Of a DNA stretch of 35,645 nt, positions 19,313 to 30,343 are shown piece by piece. This DNA comes from a bacterium (GTDB lineage Bacteria > Patescibacteriota > Dojkabacteria > JAKAPS01 > JAJZLI01), in contig DAIDGT010000008.1 of NCBI GenBank assembly GCA_027459825.1, positions 1 to 35,645 on the forward strand, given 5' to 3'. How positions within the stretch are numbered: position 1 is the first letter of the stretch; the number at the start of each line of letters is the position of its first letter. A model generated the notes under the pieces. That model made no database searches. It saw nothing but the letters and a program-made list of their open reading frames with translations, and was not told the origin of the DNA. The position numbers were made by a program, and so were the translations under genes.

Positions 19313-20617
19313 TTATCCCTGTGCAATCATCCCTATTCCAGATACTTGAGTGGAGTTCCAATCTTCTCCTTGAGGTATTCCAGATGCAGTTCCTGTTACT
19401 GTAAAAGTAGCTCCATTTTGTGATTGCCCATTGGTATTTGTTGCCTGTAATCCATAAGTATTAAATCCTGAATTTGTTGTATTCCATGAACCTGTGAGTC
19501 CATTTGTTACTTGTATATTAACAGGACCAAATGTATCATTGACTGTATCTCCATTTGCCTTGACATTACCCTCTACATTGAAATATAGCCTTGGAGTAAA
19601 TGTCATTGGAATTTCAGCTATAGCTGTTCCATTTTCATAAAATATTGCAGTGTTAGATCCTTGCCACCATGCAAGTTCTATAGTTGTTGCATTATTAGAT
19701 GCTGGTTCTATATATTGGTAAGTAAATGTTCCGTTTTGAACTCTCTCCCATACAAATTGAGGAGTTCCATTTGATTCTACATCTCCTGTATCGCTTTGTA
19801 TCCCAACTGATAGTGCATCGTTACTTCCATCATGCATATTAATATATGCACTGTTTCCTGATCCTGTTCCATTCTCTGTAATAGTATCTGTATATGTTGC
19901 GTATGGGCTACCTGAAGGAATTGTTATCTGTGGTAAATTTACCGATCCATTAGAGAAATTTATATTTTCAAATGTTGTATCACATATATCTCCAGTATCT
20001 CTACCTGCTGCCAAAAATGAAATTGACGGATTATTTTCTACGACTGGGTAAACCCCTAATGTCTTTGTACTGTCTATTGTTACAGATATTCCGGTTGCAG
20101 TCCATGTGAATTCAAAATGATGTGCATATCCTGTAACTGCATTATCTGGCCAATATCCACCAACTGGTACTCCGTTTGCTGCTCCTTCTATCATAAGAGT
20201 TGTTCCTGTAGGAGATACTCCTGGATCATGTATAAGTCCAAATGCTATATAGTTTTTAGGATCATTCCAAAATTGTACAAAACCTTTGTATCCTGTTCCT
20301 GAACCATAACTACATGATCCTCCGGGACAGTATGTTCCAATAAGATCTACATTCAATGTTCCTGAGGAATTTCCTCTATATGATAATGTTGCTCCACTTT
20401 CATAATTAACAGGTCCTGTGCCCCATGCCCCTTGTGTTTGCCTTTGTCCCCACGCATGTACTGTCTCAAGAGAAGTACTAACAGTTGAGTGTAATCCAGA
20501 ATCTAAAGATATTGGGGTTGCATTTGCAACCATAGCATAAGATTTATGCGTAAGAAAAAAGGATAATATGAATATTATAGGTAGAGAAAATAAAATTTTC
20601 TTTGTTAATAATTGCAT
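19313..20617 (-). CDS. Secreted protein with probable concanavalin A/LamG-like beta-sandwich domains
   Basis: Signal peptide (ILFSLPIIFILSFFLTHKSYAM); Gly/Ser/Thr-rich beta-strand pattern in two segments. Tracked start is 20623; the second ATG (20617) fits the predicted promoter better. Confidence 0.7.
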   Translation of the reverse strand: MQLLTKKILFSLPIIFILSFFLTHKSYAMVANATPISLDSGLHSTVSTSLETVHAWGQRQTQGAWGTGPVNYESGATLSYRGNSSGTLNVDLIGTYCPGGSCSYGSGTGYKGFVQFWNDPKNYIAFGLIHDPGVSPTGTTLMIEGAANGVPVGGYWPDNAVTGYAHHFEFTWTATGISVTIDSTKTLGVYPVVENNPSISFLAAGRDTGDICDTTFENINFSNGSVNLPQITIPSGSPYATYTDTITENGTGSGNSAYINMHDGSNDALSVGIQSDTGDVESNGTPQFVWERVQNGTFTYQYIEPASNNATTIELAWWQGSNTAIFYENGTAIAEIPMTFTPRLYFNVEGNVKANGDTVNDTFGPVNIQVTNGLTGSWNTTNSGFNTYGLQATNTNGQSQNGATFTVTGTASGIPQGEDWNSTQVSGIGMIAQG

Positions 20618-20626
20618 GATCATACA

Positions 20627-20657: not shown

Positions 20658-21548
20658 TTAACGTATAGATATATATTTTATTATGTATAGTAACTTCATT
20701 GTGTAGTAAACTATAATGTTTGTGATAATACTGTGCTTATTTTTGTAATATTTTTTATAGAAAAGTATCATTGAATCGGAGTATGCTTTTGCCCATCTTC
20801 GTTTAATGTTTATATCTGCTTTAGAAAACTTTTTGCTTGACTTCTTTAGTCCTCCGGATGCTCCTTTGTAATGCATAGTGTTTGTTTTGGGATAATATTT
20901 TATTTGCCATCCTGCAAGTTTTGTTCTATAGCATAAATCAATATCTTCTCCCATTGCCCAGAAATCTTCATCAAAGAAACCAATTCCTTCCTTTTTTTTG
21001 TTTCCAAATAAAACTTCTCTTCTTATAAACATGAATGCTCCTGTACATACATCTATATGCGCTTCTTTATCATCAGGTATGTCATTCATGTTATATCCTG
21101 AAAATGTTTTTGATATTTTATCCATGTGAAATATTTTACCGATGCTATTTTTGATAGTAGGGAATCTTCTTTTGCACGCAAGATCTAGCTTCCCATTTGG
21201 TAGGAGTATCTTGCATGTAGCAATACCGACTTTAGGTTTTTTTTCCATGTATGTATATAAGATTCCAAGAGTGTCTTTTTCTAGCTTTGTATCAGGATTT
21301 AATATAAGTATATATTTACCTTTTGCTATTTTTAACCCCTGATTATTACCTTTAGAAAATCCAACATTTTCTTTGTTTTTAATATATTTAATTTTATTTT
21401 TTTCCTTAAATAATTTGTAAGTATCGTCATTTCCATTATCAATGACAATAATTTCTATATTTTTATTACTTTTTAATGATGCAATACATTCTTTAAGTAA
21501 ATTTTTTACATTGTAAGTTAAAATTATAATGGATATATCTATTTTCAT
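20658..21548 (-). CDS. GT2 family glycosyltransferase (rhamnosyltransferase-like)
   Basis: DISIIILTYNVKNLLKECIASLKSN, VIDNGNDD, GFSKGNNQGLKIAKGKYILILNPDT, FMFIRREVL, FFDEDFWAMGEDIDLCYRTKLAGW. Confidence 0.9.
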   Translation of the reverse strand: MKIDISIIILTYNVKNLLKECIASLKSNKNIEIIVIDNGNDDTYKLFKEKNKIKYIKNKENVGFSKGNNQGLKIAKGKYILILNPDTKLEKDTLGILYTYMEKKPKVGIATCKILLPNGKLDLACKRRFPTIKNSIGKIFHMDKISKTFSGYNMNDIPDDKEAHIDVCTGAFMFIRREVLFGNKKKEGIGFFDEDFWAMGEDIDLCYRTKLAGWQIKYYPKTNTMHYKGASGGLKKSSKKFSKADINIKRRWAKAYSDSMILFYKKYYKNKHSIITNIIVYYTMKLLYIIKYISIR

Positions 21549-21641
21549 ATTTTTGAATTATATTACATTTTATTACTTTTGTTGACTATACTTTATAAAT
21601 TTTATGTTTAGGGATATTTAATATATAATTCTTTATAAATT

Positions 21642-22403
21642 ATGACTAAGAACGATAAAGATTTATTATTTGAGTTTGTAAAAACTGATTTCACTTTGAG
21701 ATATAACAATTCTATACTTGGATTTCTTTGGGCAGTATTAAAACCATTACTTATGTTTTCTGTCATGTATTTTGTATTTTCTTTTTTCATGGGAAATACA
21801 ATTAAGTATTATTCTCTTTACCTTTTAATTGGTATATTTATGTACAATTTCTTTCAAGAGGTGACAACAAATGGGTTAAATTCTTTACTGCAGAAGAAAG
21901 ATATTATCTTGAAAGTAAATTTCAAAAGATATCTTGCAGTAATTGGATCTACTTTGATTGCTGGTATCAATTTAGGGTTTAATCTTCTTGTTTCTGTGAT
22001 ATTTTTTGCATTTAATCATTTACTTCCGACTCCTCAGGGAATACTTTTTTTTCTTGTATCTATAATAATATTATATATTCTCGCATTGGGAATAGCTTTT
22101 TTCATTAGCATTCTCCATGTTAAGTTTAGGGATTTGCAACATATATGGGAAATATTAATGCTTATATTTTTCTACCTTACTCCAATTGTATATCCTATAT
22201 CCATTATCAAGGGGAAGTTTTCCCTTATAATATATGCAAATCCATTAACACATATTTTAACTTTTGGTAGGAATGTTCTAATATATGGGAAATTCTCTTC
22301 TGTCCTTTCTACTTTTATAATTTTAATTTCATCTCTTCTGTTGTTGTTGCTCGGTGTTCTGTTTTTTCAAAAGAATATTAAAAAAATTGCAGAGGAGTTT
22401 TAA
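21642..22403 (+). CDS. ABC-2 type polysaccharide export permease (Wzm/TagG-like)
   Basis: DFTLRYNNSILGFLWAVLKPLLMFSVMYFVFSFFMG and LTPIVYPISIIKGKFSLIIYANPLTHILTFGRNVLIYG signatures; six TM pattern; next to ATPase. Confidence 0.9.
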   Translation: MTKNDKDLLFEFVKTDFTLRYNNSILGFLWAVLKPLLMFSVMYFVFSFFMGNTIKYYSLYLLIGIFMYNFFQEVTTNGLNSLLQKKDIILKVNFKRYLAVIGSTLIAGINLGFNLLVSVIFFAFNHLLPTPQGILFFLVSIIILYILALGIAFFISILHVKFRDLQHIWEILMLIFFYLTPIVYPISIIKGKFSLIIYANPLTHILTFGRNVLIYGKFSSVLSTFIILISSLLLLLLGVLFFQKNIKKIAEEF

Positions 22404-22409
22404 TTATAT

Positions 22410-23585
22410 ATGGCAGTAATTGAAGTATCTAATATAACAAAAACATTTAGAATTCCTCAGGAAAGAAAAACTCAATTAAAGGAATATTTTGTAAATCCAT
22501 TTAAAAAAAATACTTATAAGGAATTTAAAGCATTAGATGATGTCTCTTTTTCTATAGAAAAGGGAGAGTTTGTAGGTATTATCGGGCGTAATGGATCTGG
22601 TAAAAGTACCCTTTTAAAAATCATTTCTGGTATTTTCCTTCCAAATAAGGGATATGTGAAAACTGATGGGAATGTAATCCCGTTTTTAGAGCTTGGTGTA
22701 GGTTTTAATATGGAGCTTACCGCAAAAGAAAATATATTCTTAAATGGAGTAATTTTGGGTATGTCTAGATCTTCTCTGCAGTCTAAATATAAAGACATTA
22801 TTAATTTTGCGGAACTTGAAGGTTTTGAAAATACTCAATTAAAGAACTTTTCTTCTGGTATGCAGGTTAGATTAGCATTTTCAATTGCTATGCAAGCGAA
22901 AGGAGATATTTATATTTTAGATGAAGTTTTAGCTGTTGGGGATATGAATTTTCAACAAAAGTGTTTTAATACCTTTAGAAAATTAAAGAAAGAAGGGAAG
23001 ACAATAGTCTTCGTTTCTCATTCGATGGGTGCTGTAGAAGAATTTTGTGATAGAGTAATTTTACTTGATCATGGAAAAATTCAGGATGAAGGAGATGCTT
23101 TTGATGTGGTTAGGTATTATAGTGAAATGTCTCTTAAGAATGGAGAGAATACTTCCATTAACAAGGTAAGTAAAGGTGAAGGAATAGTTTCTGTAAAAGC
23201 TTTGAATCTAAAATTAGAAGAATCTTCTTCTTTCAATATGGGAGATTACATAAAACTACGTATAAATTATAGTTTTAAGGGTAATATTAAAAATCCTATT
23301 TTTGAAGTTAATTTATATAGAAATGATGGGTTATGTGTTGCATCTTTAAATACTCAAGATTCCGAAGTTGAGATTAATCAAATAAATGGAAATTCTTTTA
23401 TTGATTTAAATATTGATAATATAAATTTTTTTGCTGGATCATATAATGTTTCTGTAATTCTTTTCAGTGAAGACTTTTCTACTGAAATTTCATTTTTAGA
23501 AAACGCATGTTCTTTTGAAATTTTTTCTCAAAAAGAAAGACAGTCAGGTGTTGTAGAGATATTAGGAAAGTGGGAAGAAAAATAG
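22410..23585 (+). CDS. ABC transporter ATPase with C-terminal Wzt-like domain
   Basis: Walker A GIIGRNGSGKSTLLK, LSSG-type signature KNFSSGMQVRLAFSIAM, Walker B IYILDEVLAVGD, H-loop VFVSHSMG; about 150 aa extra C-terminal beta domain. Confidence 0.93.
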   Translation: MAVIEVSNITKTFRIPQERKTQLKEYFVNPFKKNTYKEFKALDDVSFSIEKGEFVGIIGRNGSGKSTLLKIISGIFLPNKGYVKTDGNVIPFLELGVGFNMELTAKENIFLNGVILGMSRSSLQSKYKDIINFAELEGFENTQLKNFSSGMQVRLAFSIAMQAKGDIYILDEVLAVGDMNFQQKCFNTFRKLKKEGKTIVFVSHSMGAVEEFCDRVILLDHGKIQDEGDAFDVVRYYSEMSLKNGENTSINKVSKGEGIVSVKALNLKLEESSSFNMGDYIKLRINYSFKGNIKNPIFEVNLYRNDGLCVASLNTQDSEVEINQINGNSFIDLNIDNINFFAGSYNVSVILFSEDFSTEISFLENACSFEIFSQKERQSGVVEILGKWEEK

Positions 23586-23645
23586 GTCTTGAATTATGTA
23601 AGCCATATATCCATTAATCTTTGTGTAATTTGTTAATAATATCTT

Positions 23646-24122
23646 TTAGCCTGAATTCTTGTAAGTTTTTCTTATGATGTTTTCAATTCTCTTCAAAATT
23701 GTAGATCTCTTAATAGGATTGGATTCTGCAATAAGTTTGGAAATTTCATATAACTTTTCTGTAGGTATTGATAGCCAGTATCCATTTATTGCAAGGTTAG
23801 TTAATAAACACACGCATGCTATTCTTTTATTTCCATTAATAAATGGATGTTGTTTTATAATTTTATAAAATAGTATGCTTGATTATTTTTCTAGTGTTGG
23901 ATATAGAGTAGTATTATAGTATCTTTGTTTAGGTATATTTAATATTCCTTCTATTTTGTTAATAGTACTTTGATCTAGGGGATCTATAGGTTCGTCATAA
24001 ATATAATTAATTTTTGTATATTCATAGACAACAAATTTAAATTCGTCAATATTTAAAAACTTATTCTTTTGATAATTTCTTGAATGTTTCCCCATATTCA
24101 TTAAGTGCTTTTTGTACAGCAT
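23646..24122 (-). pseudogene. Fic/Doc-family toxin gene interrupted by in-frame TAA
   Basis: Minus frame of the 23883..24122 ORF continues past TAA (23883-23885): LEK*SSILFYKIIKQHPFINGNKRIACVCLLTNLAINGYWLSIPTEKLYEISKLIAESNPIKRSTILKRIENIIRKTYKNSG*. HPFINGNKR is the Fic/Doc motif (23823-23849). Confidence 0.82.
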
Positions 24123-24204
24123 ATCTTAAGACTTCCTTTTTTTTCTTAGGGATTTTATTGTTTAATATATCTATATTTTTCTGAATGTCTGTAAGACTCA
24201 ACAT
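24061..24204 (-). CDS. Short putative antitoxin upstream of the Doc-like gene
   Basis: 47-aa minus-strand ORF MLSLTDIQKNIDILNNKIPKKKKEVLRYAVQKALNEYGETFKKLSKE*, absent from the ORF track because of length; overlaps the start of the doc frame. Confidence 0.55.
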   Translation of the reverse strand: MLSLTDIQKNIDILNNKIPKKKKEVLRYAVQKALNEYGETFKKLSKE

Positions 24205-24292
24205 AAGATATTTCTCTTATAATATATACCAATATAATTATATCATAATGGTGAATTGTATTTAAATCTTAGTAATTTATAATAATTAAAAG

Positions 24293-24308
24293 ACATACAT
24301 ATGTATGT
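24293..24308. terminator. 16-bp perfect palindrome, possible weak terminator for the minus-strand rmlB-GH18-S8-GT2 unit or a binding site
   Basis: acatacatatgtatgt immediately past the GT2 stop (24311); minus-strand continuation is cTTTTaattatt. Confidence 0.35.
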
Positions 24309-24310
24309 AG

Positions 24311-25117
24311 TCATAAATTCTTTAAATACTTTACATACTTTTTTGCAAATTCCCTATTTAAGTACATATATATGGGAAATTTTAATATATCATATACTTT
24401 TGCAATAATTATTTTCCTTTTTTTATATTTTCTTAATACTTTATATTTATTTTTTAAAGATAGTGTGAGGTTATTAATATTTTGTGTACTTCCTCTATAA
24501 TGTACAGCTTTTGCACTTGGTATACAGTAATTTTTATATCCAGCAATATTTATGCGTATTCCTAAATCTATATCTTCGTAATAAGATATAAATGTTGGGT
24601 CAAAAAAACCTACTTTGTCTATAACCTGTTTTTTATATATTGTTGCTGCAGCACAACATGCAAGTATTTCTTTATTCTTTTTAGGAAATTTTTTTATATC
24701 TTTTGCACTTCCACCTATATTTAGATATATTCCGCAACTATCTACTTTTGTTTTACTTGTATTTCTATATAGTGCCCCTTGTGCTGATGCTATTAATTTT
24801 TTCGTTTTGAGAATATTTATTATCTTTTTTATATATGTTTTTTCCAATATAACATCATGATTTAATGTTAATATATATTCTCCATTGGAAATTTTATATC
24901 CTTGGTTATTTGCCTCTGCGAAACCTGTATTATTTTTATTTTCTATAACTTTTATTTTTGCGTAATTTTTTAGTATTGTTTTTGTATTATCAGTTGAGTT
25001 ATTGTCTATAACTATAACCTCTATATTTTTATAACTTTGGTTAAAAACAGAATCAATGCACTCCTTTATGTAGTGTTCACTATTATATGTTACCAATATT
25101 ATACTTACCATTGACAT
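24311..25117 (-). CDS. GT2 family glycosyltransferase (rhamnosyltransferase-like)
   Basis: VSIILVTYNSEHYIKECIDSVFNQSYKNIEVIVIDNNSTD, GFAEANNQGYKISNGEYILTLNHDV, GFFDPTFISYYEDIDLGIRINIAGY. Confidence 0.9.
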   Translation of the reverse strand: MSMVSIILVTYNSEHYIKECIDSVFNQSYKNIEVIVIDNNSTDNTKTILKNYAKIKVIENKNNTGFAEANNQGYKISNGEYILTLNHDVILEKTYIKKIINILKTKKLIASAQGALYRNTSKTKVDSCGIYLNIGGSAKDIKKFPKKNKEILACCAAATIYKKQVIDKVGFFDPTFISYYEDIDLGIRINIAGYKNYCIPSAKAVHYRGSTQNINNLTLSLKNKYKVLRKYKKRKIIIAKVYDILKFPIYMYLNREFAKKYVKYLKNL

Positions 25118-25142: not shown

Positions 25143-27236
25143 TTAGTTTAATGTAACAGGAGGATAACTCTTATCGTATATTGACCCGAAAAACTGTGCA
25201 TTACCAAATGTGTATATAGCACCATCTTTTGTGAGTATGTAATATCCTCCATTGACCACTTTAAGTCCAATTGGTATATACGATGGAGCTCCTTTTATAT
25301 TGTACATTGACCCGAAAAACTGTGCATTGCCAAATGTGTATACAGCCCCGTCATTTGTTAGTAAATAATACCCTCCATTTGTTTGATAAAGTCCAATTGT
25401 TGTTGTGCTGATAGGGTTTGAAATATTATACATAGACCCATAGAAAGATGCATTGCCGAATGTATATACTGCTCCATTTAGAGTTAATATATAGTATCCA
25501 TTTCCATCTGCTGTTGTGTATATACCTATAGGAGTATTGCTTGCAGTCTCTTTATATCCAGAAATATTATACATAGACCCGAAAAATTTAGCACTGCCAA
25601 AAGTATACACTGCTCCATCTGTAGTCAAGATATAATATCCTTTTCCATCGGGAGTACTGGAGATTGAGATTGAGTTCATTACAAGAGGGTTTAATATGTT
25701 ATACATAGATCCAAAAAATTTGGCATTACCAAAAGTATAAACGGCCCCATTTGATGTTAGTATATAATAACCATTACTTGTTGTGACAAGATCTACAGGC
25801 TTATATACAACGTTAGAAAGATTTCCATAGTTTAGGTTATTCCCAAAAGATTCAACATTTCCATTTATTCCAAGTATGTCATAGCCTTGTGTTGGGGATT
25901 GAATTTGTAGCAGTGCATTAATATTCAACATCCCATAGCCGTAGGTGGTATTTATTCCTCCAATTGGAGAGGAGCTTTCTTTTAGGAGTAATCTTATATT
26001 TCCTGGTGACTGAATTCCATATTCTGATTCATATAGAGCAATTGCAGCAGAAACTTGTGGAGCAGAGAATGATGTTCCTTCTAGTGATTCATTAGAAAAT
26101 TCAGTATATGATGTTACATTTCCCGTATCATATCCTGTGTATGTTTGTTGAAAAAGTAATGGAGTTGTATCACCAACAGGCGCAACTATAGTCTGGCAGT
26201 TATTATCACTACTACAACCATAAGCAGAGTAGCTTGCAAGAGTTCCTTGTGCATTTGTTGCTCCTACTGCTATGACATTTGGGTACCCTGCGGGATATGA
26301 TAATGTTGATGCACCTGTATTCCCTGATGATGCAACTACTGAAATCCCATTATTTATTGCATCTTCAATTTCAGTTTCTTCAATGGATGATGGAGAGCTA
26401 GATTCAATACTTAAATTTATGATATTAGCATTATGATCTATTGCCCATTGTATTCCTAGAATTTCTGCTCCAAGAGGAATCCCATTTGCATCTCCAATTT
26501 CTATAGGCATAATTGATGTATTAAATGCTATACCTGCTGTTCCATATAGATTGGATCCACTACTATCTTGATTTGCGCTACTGGCGATAATTCCTGAGAC
26601 ATAAGTTCCGTGTCCTACAGTATCAATAGGTAAGTATTCATTCTGATTTTGTCCTTCATATGCTGCTAGTGCGTTATATGGATCTACAAAATTTGTATAT
26701 GATAACCCTGGTGCCTGCGCATACTGTGTTCCTGTAGAAGGATCAGTATAATTTTCATATGCCACACCACTATCTTCTACAGCAACTACAATATTTGATG
26801 TTCCCCCTAGTGAAGAGTTAAACCCTGAATTCTCTACAATTGGTGCATGAATAATGGGTAAGTTCTGCTGTTTTGTTATATCTATATTATTAGGTAATGA
26901 TGAAAATTTTCTTATATAATTAGGAGATATGTTATTAATATTATTATCTTCTTCAAGTCCTGCTAAAAAGTTAATGTAATTTTCTGTTTGAGGTTTTTTT
27001 ATTATATAAATATTATTATTTATTTTTGTTGCATCATTAGGATTTATTTGTTTTGGTGGTGTTGTATATTCAACTAACGCTTCATTAGTATCATAGCTTT
27101 TTCCATTAGTAAGTGAATATGCTTTATTTAGATCTGTTGGTATTCCTTGCGCGTATGTTGGCGTTTTATGTCTTCCAATTAATATACACAATATTATCCC
27201 TAGAGAGAAAATTATTAATACACTATATTTTTTCAT
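25143..27236 (-). CDS. Secreted subtilisin-like (S8) serine protease with C-terminal six-copy repeat domain
   Basis: Signal peptide; triad motifs VVAVEDSGVAYEN (Asp), GHGTYVSGIIAS (His), GTSFSAPQVSAAIALYES (Ser); C-terminal GYYILTxxGAVYTFGNAxFFGSMYNI repeats. Confidence 0.92.
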   Translation of the reverse strand: MKKYSVLIIFSLGIILCILIGRHKTPTYAQGIPTDLNKAYSLTNGKSYDTNEALVEYTTPPKQINPNDATKINNNIYIIKKPQTENYINFLAGLEEDNNINNISPNYIRKFSSLPNNIDITKQQNLPIIHAPIVENSGFNSSLGGTSNIVVAVEDSGVAYENYTDPSTGTQYAQAPGLSYTNFVDPYNALAAYEGQNQNEYLPIDTVGHGTYVSGIIASSANQDSSGSNLYGTAGIAFNTSIMPIEIGDANGIPLGAEILGIQWAIDHNANIINLSIESSSPSSIEETEIEDAINNGISVVASSGNTGASTLSYPAGYPNVIAVGATNAQGTLASYSAYGCSSDNNCQTIVAPVGDTTPLLFQQTYTGYDTGNVTSYTEFSNESLEGTSFSAPQVSAAIALYESEYGIQSPGNIRLLLKESSSPIGGINTTYGYGMLNINALLQIQSPTQGYDILGINGNVESFGNNLNYGNLSNVVYKPVDLVTTSNGYYILTSNGAVYTFGNAKFFGSMYNILNPLVMNSISISSTPDGKGYYILTTDGAVYTFGSAKFFGSMYNISGYKETASNTPIGIYTTADGNGYYILTLNGAVYTFGNASFYGSMYNISNPISTTTIGLYQTNGGYYLLTNDGAVYTFGNAQFFGSMYNIKGAPSYIPIGLKVVNGGYYILTKDGAIYTFGNAQFFGSIYDKSYPPVTLN
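25146..25886 (-). repeat. Six tandem 34-47 aa protein repeats in the S8 protease C-terminus
   Basis: Units start GYDILGINGNVESFG, GYYILTSNGAVYTFG, GYYILTTDGAVYTFG, GYYILTLNGAVYTFG, GYYLLTNDGAVYTFG, GYYILTKDGAIYTFG; the first unit is the most divergent. Confidence 0.92.
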
Positions 27237-27239
27237 ATT

Positions 27240-29342
27240 TTAAAGAAGACTAAAGTCTGATGTAGAGTTAAATGTTGAAATACCTGTCCCATCATATACC
27301 GCATCCCCAAAAGTATAAACACCACCATCTTTTGTAATAAGGTAATACCCTCCTTTATCTTCAGTTTGCTCAAATGCAATAGGTGTTGTGACTGGAGCAT
27401 TCTTAATGTTGTACATGGATCCATAGAAAGATGCGTCTCCAAAAGTATAAACACCTCCATCTGTTGTAATTAAATAATATCCACATCCATCCGCAGTAAG
27501 TGACATTATTACAGTATTTTTTATGGGTGCGTTTGGTATATTAAATACTGACCCATAGAAATATGCATCTCCAAAAGTGTATACTGACCCATTTGATGTC
27601 GTTATGTAATATCCTTTTCCATCTTTAGTTAAAGTTAGTGATACTGGAGTTTTGTCTGGTAATGCAGATGCTGGAATGTTGAATAGAGATCCATAAAACT
27701 GAGCGTCTCCAAAGGTATATACCCCTCCATCAGCTGTAAGCACATAATATCCTTTTCCATCAGGTGTTACTTTTATATCTATTGGTGTTTTTATAGGTGC
27801 ATTTGGAATGTCATATACCGATCCATAAAATTTTGCACTACCGAAAGTATATATACCTCCATCTGTTGTTAGTATGTAGTACCCGCTATCATCTGGTAGT
27901 GGAGCAATTTTTAATGAGTTATAGTCTGGCGCATTTGGTATATATGTCATATCTCCGTAGTACTCAGCATTTCCAAATGTAAGTACCTTTCCATGGCCAG
28001 AGAGTAGGTAGTAGGCACTATTTATGCTAGAGAATGTACTGTTGTTAATAAAGTAGTTTGCTTCTGTTTGCCACAGCTCAGTTGCTGGTTCTTGGTCTCC
28101 TAGTGTCCAGAATCCAACACCTCTTAAATTATAATCTAGAATTTCATTATATATTTGCGATAGATACTCTGGACTAGAATAATATCCTTCCCTCATTTGG
28201 TCTGTAGATGCACAGTTTGGAGGTGTATTATTTGAAGGGTAACAGTATCCATACCATGGAGCAGATGCAGTACTATCCCAATGCATAGTACTGGCATTTT
28301 TATATTGGTCATTTGTTTGTCCATAAGGCTCTGTAATTGCTGTACCTGATATTGTTTGCGCATTTTGATTTAAACTTGTCGTTGCATAGTCATAACTATA
28401 GTATGGTACCAATATTACAATCTTATTTGGACTTGTAACACTTGTGAAATCTTTTATAGTTTGTTTGACATCGTACCATAATGGCCCTGTCCCATTATTG
28501 TATCCTGAAAATGGAGCAGTAGGTTCTGATATAGAAGATTTTGAAGAGTAATAATCATATGCCATTACATCTATTGCATCAGATGCATTTGCAAGTGCGG
28601 GTATATCATATAGTGACCCTGACCATTTTGCTGCTCCTGCTACAACATCAACACTTATATAAGATCCAGGAATGCTACTGTGCATTGTGCTTGTCATATT
28701 CTGCATAAAAGTTGTGAAATTATTTATTGTTGTTGTATTAGGGACTCCGTCTGTTGTTGGGTTATATTCAAAATCTATATTTACCCCTTGAAGGTTATAT
28801 TGTTTGACTAAATTAATTGTATTATTTATTAAATTTTGGGAGTTTGTAGTTGAGTCTACAACACTTTCAATATCTTGTAGGTTAAATATTTTTATAGTTA
28901 AAACTACTCTTACATTATTTTCATGTGCTAGGTTTACCATATCTGTAAACTGTTGTGATTGAAGTCCTGACCACCCCGCGTCATTTGTTGTTATAAAATT
29001 ACCATTTCCATCTGAGGTTACTCCGAAGTATGCAATAGTCTTAAGGTCAGAGTATACGTAACTTGTATATGCTCCACTTGATAAGTCCCAGTAAGGGGCA
29101 AATCCCATAACTTCCTTTTCCATGCCAGTAGGACCATAACTTGAAAATGTTTTTAAGGGTTGAGGTTTTGAAGTTGCAGGTAGAAATTTATACTGAATAT
29201 TTTTATGTAAATTATTAGTAAGTATATTACCTATCTCTGTATTAGGTGGATTAGGTATTTGAGCTAATACCCCAGTTGTTAGTATGCAGTTTAATACTAT
29301 TAAAGTTAGTATATATATTATTACATTGTAGGCAGTTTTCAT
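27240..29342 (-). CDS. Secreted GH18-family glycoside hydrolase (YaaH/SleL-like) with C-terminal six-copy repeat domain
   Basis: Signal peptide; VMGFAPYWDL, LQGVNIDFEYN (catalytic DxE; E codon about 28767-28769), DAIDVMAYDYYSS, RGVGFWTLGDQEPATELW; C-terminal repeats. Confidence 0.9.
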   Translation of the reverse strand: MKTAYNVIIYILTLIVLNCILTTGVLAQIPNPPNTEIGNILTNNLHKNIQYKFLPATSKPQPLKTFSSYGPTGMEKEVMGFAPYWDLSSGAYTSYVYSDLKTIAYFGVTSDGNGNFITTNDAGWSGLQSQQFTDMVNLAHENNVRVVLTIKIFNLQDIESVVDSTTNSQNLINNTINLVKQYNLQGVNIDFEYNPTTDGVPNTTTINNFTTFMQNMTSTMHSSIPGSYISVDVVAGAAKWSGSLYDIPALANASDAIDVMAYDYYSSKSSISEPTAPFSGYNNGTGPLWYDVKQTIKDFTSVTSPNKIVILVPYYSYDYATTSLNQNAQTISGTAITEPYGQTNDQYKNASTMHWDSTASAPWYGYCYPSNNTPPNCASTDQMREGYYSSPEYLSQIYNEILDYNLRGVGFWTLGDQEPATELWQTEANYFINNSTFSSINSAYYLLSGHGKVLTFGNAEYYGDMTYIPNAPDYNSLKIAPLPDDSGYYILTTDGGIYTFGSAKFYGSVYDIPNAPIKTPIDIKVTPDGKGYYVLTADGGVYTFGDAQFYGSLFNIPASALPDKTPVSLTLTKDGKGYYITTSNGSVYTFGDAYFYGSVFNIPNAPIKNTVIMSLTADGCGYYLITTDGGVYTFGDASFYGSMYNIKNAPVTTPIAFEQTEDKGGYYLITKDGGVYTFGDAVYDGTGISTFNSTSDFSLL
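27243..28016 (-). repeat. Six tandem 36-46 aa protein repeats in the GH18 protein C-terminus
   Basis: Units start AYYLLSGHGKVLTFG, GYYILTTDGGIYTFG, GYYVLTADGGVYTFG, GYYITTSNGSVYTFG, GYYLITTDGGVYTFG, GYYLITKDGGVYTFG; same family as the repeats in the adjacent S8 gene. Confidence 0.92.
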
Positions 29343-30343
29343 TTTCTTTGGAGGTATTGTTTTTTATAATACTCCATATACTCCCCAGATTTCAATTTTG
29401 ACCACCATTCTTTATTATTTATATACCAGTCTATTGTGTCTTTAATACCACTTTGAAATTGTTTAGTATGTTTCCATCCTAGCTCACTCCTTATTTTTGA
29501 TGAATTTACTGCATATCTGAAATCATGCCCCTCTCTGTCTTTAACATATTCAATTTCTTCTTCTCCTTTTCCCATATGAGATAATATTGTTTTTACAACT
29601 TCTATATTCTGGAGTCTTTGGGCACTACCTATATTATATACTTCTCCTCCCATTCCTTCCTTTAGTGTAAGTTCTATTGCTGATGCAAAGTCTTCTACAT
29701 AAATCCATTCTCTTATTTGGTGTCCCTTTCCATATACAGGAACTTTCTTTCCTTCTATTAGATTTGTTATGACTAGTGGTATCAATTTTTCAGGATACTG
29801 ATTTGGTCCATATACATTACATGAATGCATTACTATAGTATTTAGTCCATATGTCGAGTGAAAAGCTCTACACATTAGATCTGCAGATGCTTTTGAAGCT
29901 GAGTATGGTGAATTTGGAAGGAATGGACTATATTCACTGAAAGTTTCTGAATCGGTTGATCCATAAACTTCATCTGTAGATATTTGTATGTACTTATCTA
30001 TATTATTATCTAATGCGGATTTTAGTAGAGTATATGTGCCAAGTACAGATGTTTCTATAAATGCCTTTGGGTTGGCAATAGATCTATCAACATGGGTTTC
30101 TGCTGCAAAATTAATTATTACATTAACCTCTTTTACTATTTTATTTATTAATTTTTCGTCACCAATATCTCCTTGTATAAATTTGTAATTTTTATTATCG
30201 TTAAGATCTTTTAAATTTTCTAAATTTCCTGCGTAGGTTAATTTATCTAGGTTAATAATTTTATAATCTGGATTATTACGTATTAAATATTTAATAAAAT
30301 TTGATCCAATAAATCCTGCTCCTCCTGTTACTAGTATTTTCAT
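29339..30343 (-). CDS. rmlB: dTDP-glucose 4,6-dehydratase
   Basis: MKILVTGGAGFIGSNFIKYLI, NLDKLTYAGNLENL, FAAETHVDRSI, STDEVYGS, YSASKASADLMCRAFHSTYGLN, NVYGPNQYPEKLIPL; ATGA overlap with downstream GH18 gene. Confidence 0.95.
   Translation of the reverse strand: MKILVTGGAGFIGSNFIKYLIRNNPDYKIINLDKLTYAGNLENLKDLNDNKNYKFIQGDIGDEKLINKIVKEVNVIINFAAETHVDRSIANPKAFIETSVLGTYTLLKSALDNNIDKYIQISTDEVYGSTDSETFSEYSPFLPNSPYSASKASADLMCRAFHSTYGLNTIVMHSCNVYGPNQYPEKLIPLVITNLIEGKKVPVYGKGHQIREWIYVEDFASAIELTLKEGMGGEVYNIGSAQRLQNIEVVKTILSHMGKGEEEIEYVKDREGHDFRYAVNSSKIRSELGWKHTKQFQSGIKDTIDWYINNKEWWSKLKSGEYMEYYKKQYLQRK

Follow-up and report, generated by a model that had tools for sequence, protein, structure and literature searches.

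Results

A subtilase and a GH18 hydrolase share a six-unit tail

The window analyzed here, the whole 35,645-nt stretch of DNA from a bacterium with a 764 kb genome, contains two neighboring genes on the minus strand with 3 nt between them. The first (25143..27236) encodes a 697-aa S8 subtilase (Pfam Peptidase_S8, E = 1.5e-37) with subtilisins among its PDB matches. The D/H/S catalytic motifs and the oxyanion N motif are all present (VEDSGV, GHGTYV, SSGN, GTSFSAP), placing the Asp/His/Ser triad of Peptidase S8 within the subtilase domain. The second (27240..29342) encodes a 700-aa chitinase-like secreted protein of family GH18 (Pfam Glyco_hydro_18, E = 3.3e-27), whose catalytic head spans about residues 75-440 and matches chitinases in the PDB. 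By motif reading, YNLQGVNIDFEY retains D-x-E, and the MAYDYY motif is retained as well. In the active-site motif QGVNIDFE, the catalytic Glu is kept, as is the Asp two residues before it, and the first two Asp residues of the DxxDxDxE-like motif are replaced; the Pfam match and the catalytic Glu together place the protein in GH18. SleL and YaaH are NIDFE-type GH18 enzymes. The window protein shares the GVNIDFE active-site motif with enzymes of this type such as YdhD (PDB 3cz8), but its head is nearer to chitinases in the PDB, and it bears the tail described below. Both proteins begin with a hydrophobic, signal-peptide-like N-terminus, as read from the sequence, which suggests that both are secreted.

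A family 2 glycosyltransferase gene (24311..25117, minus strand; Glycos_transf_2, E = 4.4e-34) lies directly downstream of the S8 gene, and in each of the six further family loci examined an orthologue lies close to the GH18-S8 pair; the gene belongs to a stretch of glycosyltransferase and polysaccharide-export-like genes (20658-25117). Upstream, a dTDP-glucose 4,6-dehydratase-like gene (29339..30343, minus strand) overlaps the GH18 gene by 4 nt and had no counterpart in the six other family loci compared. The window also encodes a secreted 436-aa protein without a Pfam family match (19313-20623, minus strand). Several family genomes have orthologues of it, at ∼65% identity, next to the GH18-S8 pair, and it could be part of the same surface system.

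Splitting the sequences at the anchor [TSA]FG[NDS] delimits exactly six units in each tail. Those of the S8 protein (residues 450-697; 25146..25889, minus strand) start at residues 450, 488, 532, 579, 621, and 663, a spacing of 38/44/47/42/42, and those of the GH18 protein (residues 442-700; 27243..28019, minus strand) start at 442, 486, 530, 576, 620, and 664, a spacing of 44/44/46/44/44. In both tails unit 1 is degenerate and the last unit is short. The unit consists of GY[WY]xLxxDGGV[YF]xFGDAxFYGS plus one linking strand, ∼44 residues in all, with three predicted strands. Each unit of the window proteins scores 45-81 bits against the unit HMM, which rules out a chance or low-complexity repeat. 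The initial annotation had described two adjacent enzymes that each end in six such units, and the reading-frame coordinates, anchor split, and HMM all bear this out. The source genome encodes a third secreted protein with six units (L010:3800-5350, minus strand, on G000:C3). In this protein the units lie near the N-terminus and the C-terminal half reads as Ig-like, without Pfam support; relatives are found in genomes G005 and G006 (L023 and L022).

The tail is predicted to form a six-bladed propeller

An AlphaFold model of the GH18 tail, built on a six-row alignment, is of moderate confidence (pLDDT 71.6, pTM 0.73), with a weak first blade. A wider, eight-row alignment that included phage six-unit chains was used for the S8 tail and gave a better model (pLDDT 81.8, pTM 0.84). 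Three strands recur in each unit of the models. For both tails the top Foldseek matches in the PDB are propellers (WD40, RCC1-like, and designed Ika8), with E-values from about 5e-8 to 1e-5 and TM-scores of about 0.5-0.65 for most, the best being ∼0.6. Many of these top matches are seven-bladed, and the majority of templates contain at least seven blades, so that the blade number of six rests on the unit count, not on a template. Six units, three predicted strands per unit, and propeller matches make a six-bladed beta-propeller, as first proposed from unit length and strand pattern, a well-supported model, in which the units would close into a ring. A choline-binding-type solenoid, hinted at by a weak PspA match (E = 0.019), was ruled out by the propeller strands of the models and by the exclusively propeller-like top Foldseek matches.

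By sequence, the closest described folds are RCC1-like propellers (RPGR, HERC1/2; RCC1_2, WD40_RLD), which give the best PDB and Pfam matches and have the GxVYxFG core in common with the tails. A profile of the tails matches the RCC1-like domains of RPGR and HERC at E = 1.8e-10. Both proteins score above the cut-off for RCC1_2 (34.0 and 32.9 versus 22 bits), but the best stretch covers just 13-17 residues of one unit, and WD40_RLD falls far below its own (29 versus 150 bits). While RCC1 propellers have seven blades of about 50-60 residues, the tails have six units of 38-47 residues and occur in a different context.

Six units are invariant in one bacterial family

A tail profile search found two to five tail proteins per genome in 8/8 genomes of the family. 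The tail was absent at E ≤ 1e-10 from 50 other genomes of the order and class, and at E ≤ 1e-6 it was confined to this one family among 380 genomes of the phylum; no tail was found in the plasmid sequences searched. When counted with a single-unit HMM, all 26 complete family tails contain exactly six units. Free variation in unit number had been named at the outset as an observation that would count against a propeller, and within the family it does not occur. These 26 tails are joined to at least five kinds of head: GH18 (8), S8 (8), kelch-like (4), Ig-like (3), fiber-like (2), and Cys-rich repeats (1). The tail is C-terminal on the GH18, S8, and kelch heads and N-terminal, after a signal-like peptide, in the Ig-like and fiber-like proteins. 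In a tree, tails cluster by head type with four changes, the minimum possible, and in 251 of 259 cross-head pairs unit i best matches unit i (shift 0). Because tails group by head and align without a shift, we conclude that six-unit tails were copied as wholes from one head to another before the family diverged, with the number fixed thereafter.

Some of these proteins have unusual architectures. The large fiber-like proteins L037 and L038 carry the six-unit module N-terminally, unlike its C-terminal place in the enzymes, and L037 contains repeats such as YNSFxGQxAGYxNT. In L036:1099-2151 (minus strand), the six units are accompanied by a C-terminal array of 19-residue Cys repeats (YNCDTFGSITDCSGTSGxY).

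Sister lineages keep the gene pair with a different propeller tail

The GH18 gene is directly upstream of the S8 gene in 8/8 family genomes. Relatives of the GH18 protein in other families of the class share 33-42% identity with it, and in four genomes of another family (G056, G055, G049, and G052) GH18 again lies directly upstream of S8, with neither protein bearing the GYY tail. The pair, kept there without the tail, is the older of the two. The existence of orthologous heads that lack the GYY tail also supports the earlier suggestion that the tail is separable from catalysis.

The sister-lineage S8 proteins instead carry ∼300 residues of BNR-like repeats (Pfam BNR_2) homologous to the Photorhabdus lectin PLL, a propeller lectin (E = 5.9e-22). 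This PLL-type tail is absent from 8/8 genomes of the window's family, so that two unrelated propeller tails are found at the same position of orthologous partners. PLL/PHL lectins are seven-bladed. They resemble the window tails in being repeat propellers, but the window tails have another repeat (GYYxLTxDGxVYTFG) and six units, and PLL was not among their sequence matches in the PDB.

The sister-lineage GH18 proteins have a short C-terminal extension. In a GH18 relative from genome G406 (L201:4601-6364, minus strand) the isolated end resembles a subtilase prodomain (Fervidolysin_NPro-like, E = 0.0016) and could bind an S8 partner. The sister-lineage pair lies near genes read from the sequence as prfB, ftsE/ftsX, phosphoglycerate mutase, and uppP. 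At loci L202-L205 the pair, its S8 member with PLL-lectin-like repeats, adjoins prfB-ftsE-ftsX and uppP, a setting in which a link to the control of wall hydrolases is possible.

Phage endolysins carry the unit in restricted numbers

Outside the family, the unit has its nearest relatives at the C-terminus of phage endolysins. Phage loci were collected from IMG/VR by DNA patterns for GYW..DGG.F.FG, and those with the unit have a median G+C of 0.66. In a PHROGs scan of five example chains, four heads were endolysins or amidases and the fifth chain, with 12 units, had no match; the remaining heads, read from sequence, are mostly of amidase and GH25 types. The units are at the extreme C-terminus in nearly all of these proteins. 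As in the window, the unit serves as a C-terminal module, but the phage arrays are mostly short (1-3 units). Among annotated phages, one record (MK557849, phage GX15bay, L011) contains a pair of arrays, each read as six units, and an endolysin-type query gave no match. The 12-unit chains of L011, L040, and L068 belong to phage tail-type proteins, in which two sets of six are placed between other domains.

Whole cores were counted and chains cut by contig ends were left out, which gave 65 chains with two units, 32 with three, 7 with one, 3 with six, and 2 with 12. On re-reading, L043, L091, L111, and L123 were moved from two to three because of degenerate end units, and L134, which was undecidable, was dropped. 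The final 108 chains comprise 7 with one unit, 60 with two, 36 with three, 3 with six, and 2 with 12. None has 4, 5, or 7-11 units, and the one apparent five runs off its contig. A hidden fourth unit is excluded in the three-unit chains because the linker of the catalytic domain leads straight into the first unit. Unit number does vary among the phage homologues, but over 1, 2, 3, 6, and 12 only. Parsimony on a tree built from 66 related heads requires no fewer than 12 changes of unit number, all of them between 2, 3, and 6, although this tree is quick with long branches, and well-supported branches alone force fewer changes. Geometric or Poisson count models, which are simple and were picked after the data were seen, put the chance of the 1/2/3/6/12-only pattern at 1e-5 to 2e-5 when heads are grouped at 60% identity (45 incidences) and at 5e-3 to 7e-3 under the coarsest grouping (21).

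A six-bladed ring closed by monomers, dimers of three-unit chains, trimers of two-unit chains, or hexamers of single units would explain the phage counts; if short chains close the ring as oligomers, these numbers are the ones that such a ring requires. Fucose lectins offer a precedent, as RSL forms trimers of two-blade chains and AAL has six blades in one chain. The GY[WY] units would work alike, with one six-bladed ring assembled from chains of either two or six units, although no sequence relation to RSL or AAL was found in PDB searches of the window tails.

Discussion

We consider it probable, though well short of assured, that the tail represents an undescribed family of six-bladed propellers, attached as a complete domain to exported proteins, and that it serves as a non-catalytic module for surface binding, most likely a lectin-like one, by which the protease and the GH18 enzyme are kept on one cell surface to act together. 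Because phages attach the same type of repeat to wall-cutting enzymes, the tail is probably a sugar-binding anchor. It would bind a surface polymer, a glycan, and the bound tail would hold both enzymes on one kind of cell surface, where they could act side by side on protein and glycan (or peptidoglycan). Sugar binding, the identity of the surface, and the cooperation of the two enzymes are the parts of this scheme that we infer. The wall or host-surface targeting put forward in the initial annotation thereby gains converging but indirect support from the endolysin heads and from the PLL-lectin tail of the sister S8 proteins; each of these speaks for binding to carbohydrate or to the wall, and neither is proof of it. 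The surface bound may be that of a host or the bacterium's own; the glycosyltransferase and polysaccharide-export-like genes nearby make a glycan of the bacterium itself a reasonable candidate beside a host glycan. The presence of the tail on kelch-like, Ig-like, and fiber-like proteins fits a general surface module and says nothing about sugar.

The propeller could equally bind protein. A docking module that ties the enzymes to a shared surface protein, or to each other in a cell-bound complex, has in its favor that many propellers are protein scaffolds, that several secreted proteins of one genome carry the tail, as expected with one receptor, and that the GH18 and S8 genes are always adjacent. 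The same unit is used by phage endolysins, enzymes that have to locate the wall of a lysing cell, and a PLL-lectin tail sits in the same place on the sister-lineage S8; both observations argue against docking and leave it an unlikely but credible reading. Less plausible still is a sorting role, in which the tail would be a C-terminal signal read by an export or surface-attachment system: its C-terminal place on the GH18, S8, and kelch heads and its restriction to one lineage would suit such a signal, but the units directly follow a signal-like peptide in the Ig-like and fiber-like proteins, and in phages they lie inside or at the end of lysins made in the cytoplasm, so that we give this reading very little weight.

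That no single closed six-bladed ring forms in all contexts, with chains of two or three acting as small independent binding units, strikes us as improbable. Chains of one, two, or three units do exist, and engineered WD40 fragments form rings whose blade number differs from that of the parent, while NHL and tachylectin fragments rebuild the parental ring (PMC6805158). Against independent units stand the missing chain lengths among the 108 phage proteins, with the low chance estimated above from simple count models, and the invariance of six in the bacterial family. Returning to closed rings, a more specific proposal sees in the GY[WY] units a hitherto undescribed lectin module with six blades that is built in two ways, as one chain of six (in the bacterial family and some phages, 12 units being two rings) or as homo-oligomers of one-, two-, or three-unit chains (in phage endolysins). 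The bacterium would use it to fix a protease and a glycan hydrolase on a host surface or its own, where sister lineages use a PLL-type lectin. We offer this fuller proposal tentatively, as somewhat short of an even chance. If true, it would give a series from nature in which propellers are amplified by way of oligomeric intermediates.

Propeller lectins and targeting modules, and endolysin wall-binding domains as a kind, are already known. The unit is unnamed in the Pfam, NCBIfam, and PHROG entries searched, and no account of it turned up in the open-licence literature when searched by motif or by the combination of endolysin and propeller, though an earlier one may exist elsewhere. What appears to be new is this propeller family, the constancy of six units in a single bacterial family, the restriction of phage chains to 1/2/3/6/12 units, and the occurrence of two alternative propeller tails on one conserved pair. 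Growth of propellers by oligomeric steps has so far been studied with engineered fragments (PMC6805158), and the phage counts make a natural test case; for endolysins, the unit would add a type of wall-binding module. Few surface proteins have, to our knowledge, been assigned experimentally in Patescibacteria-like bacteria of this size class. A protease-GH18 pair that is conserved across families with unrelated propeller tails points to a testable unit of surface attack or surface remodeling.
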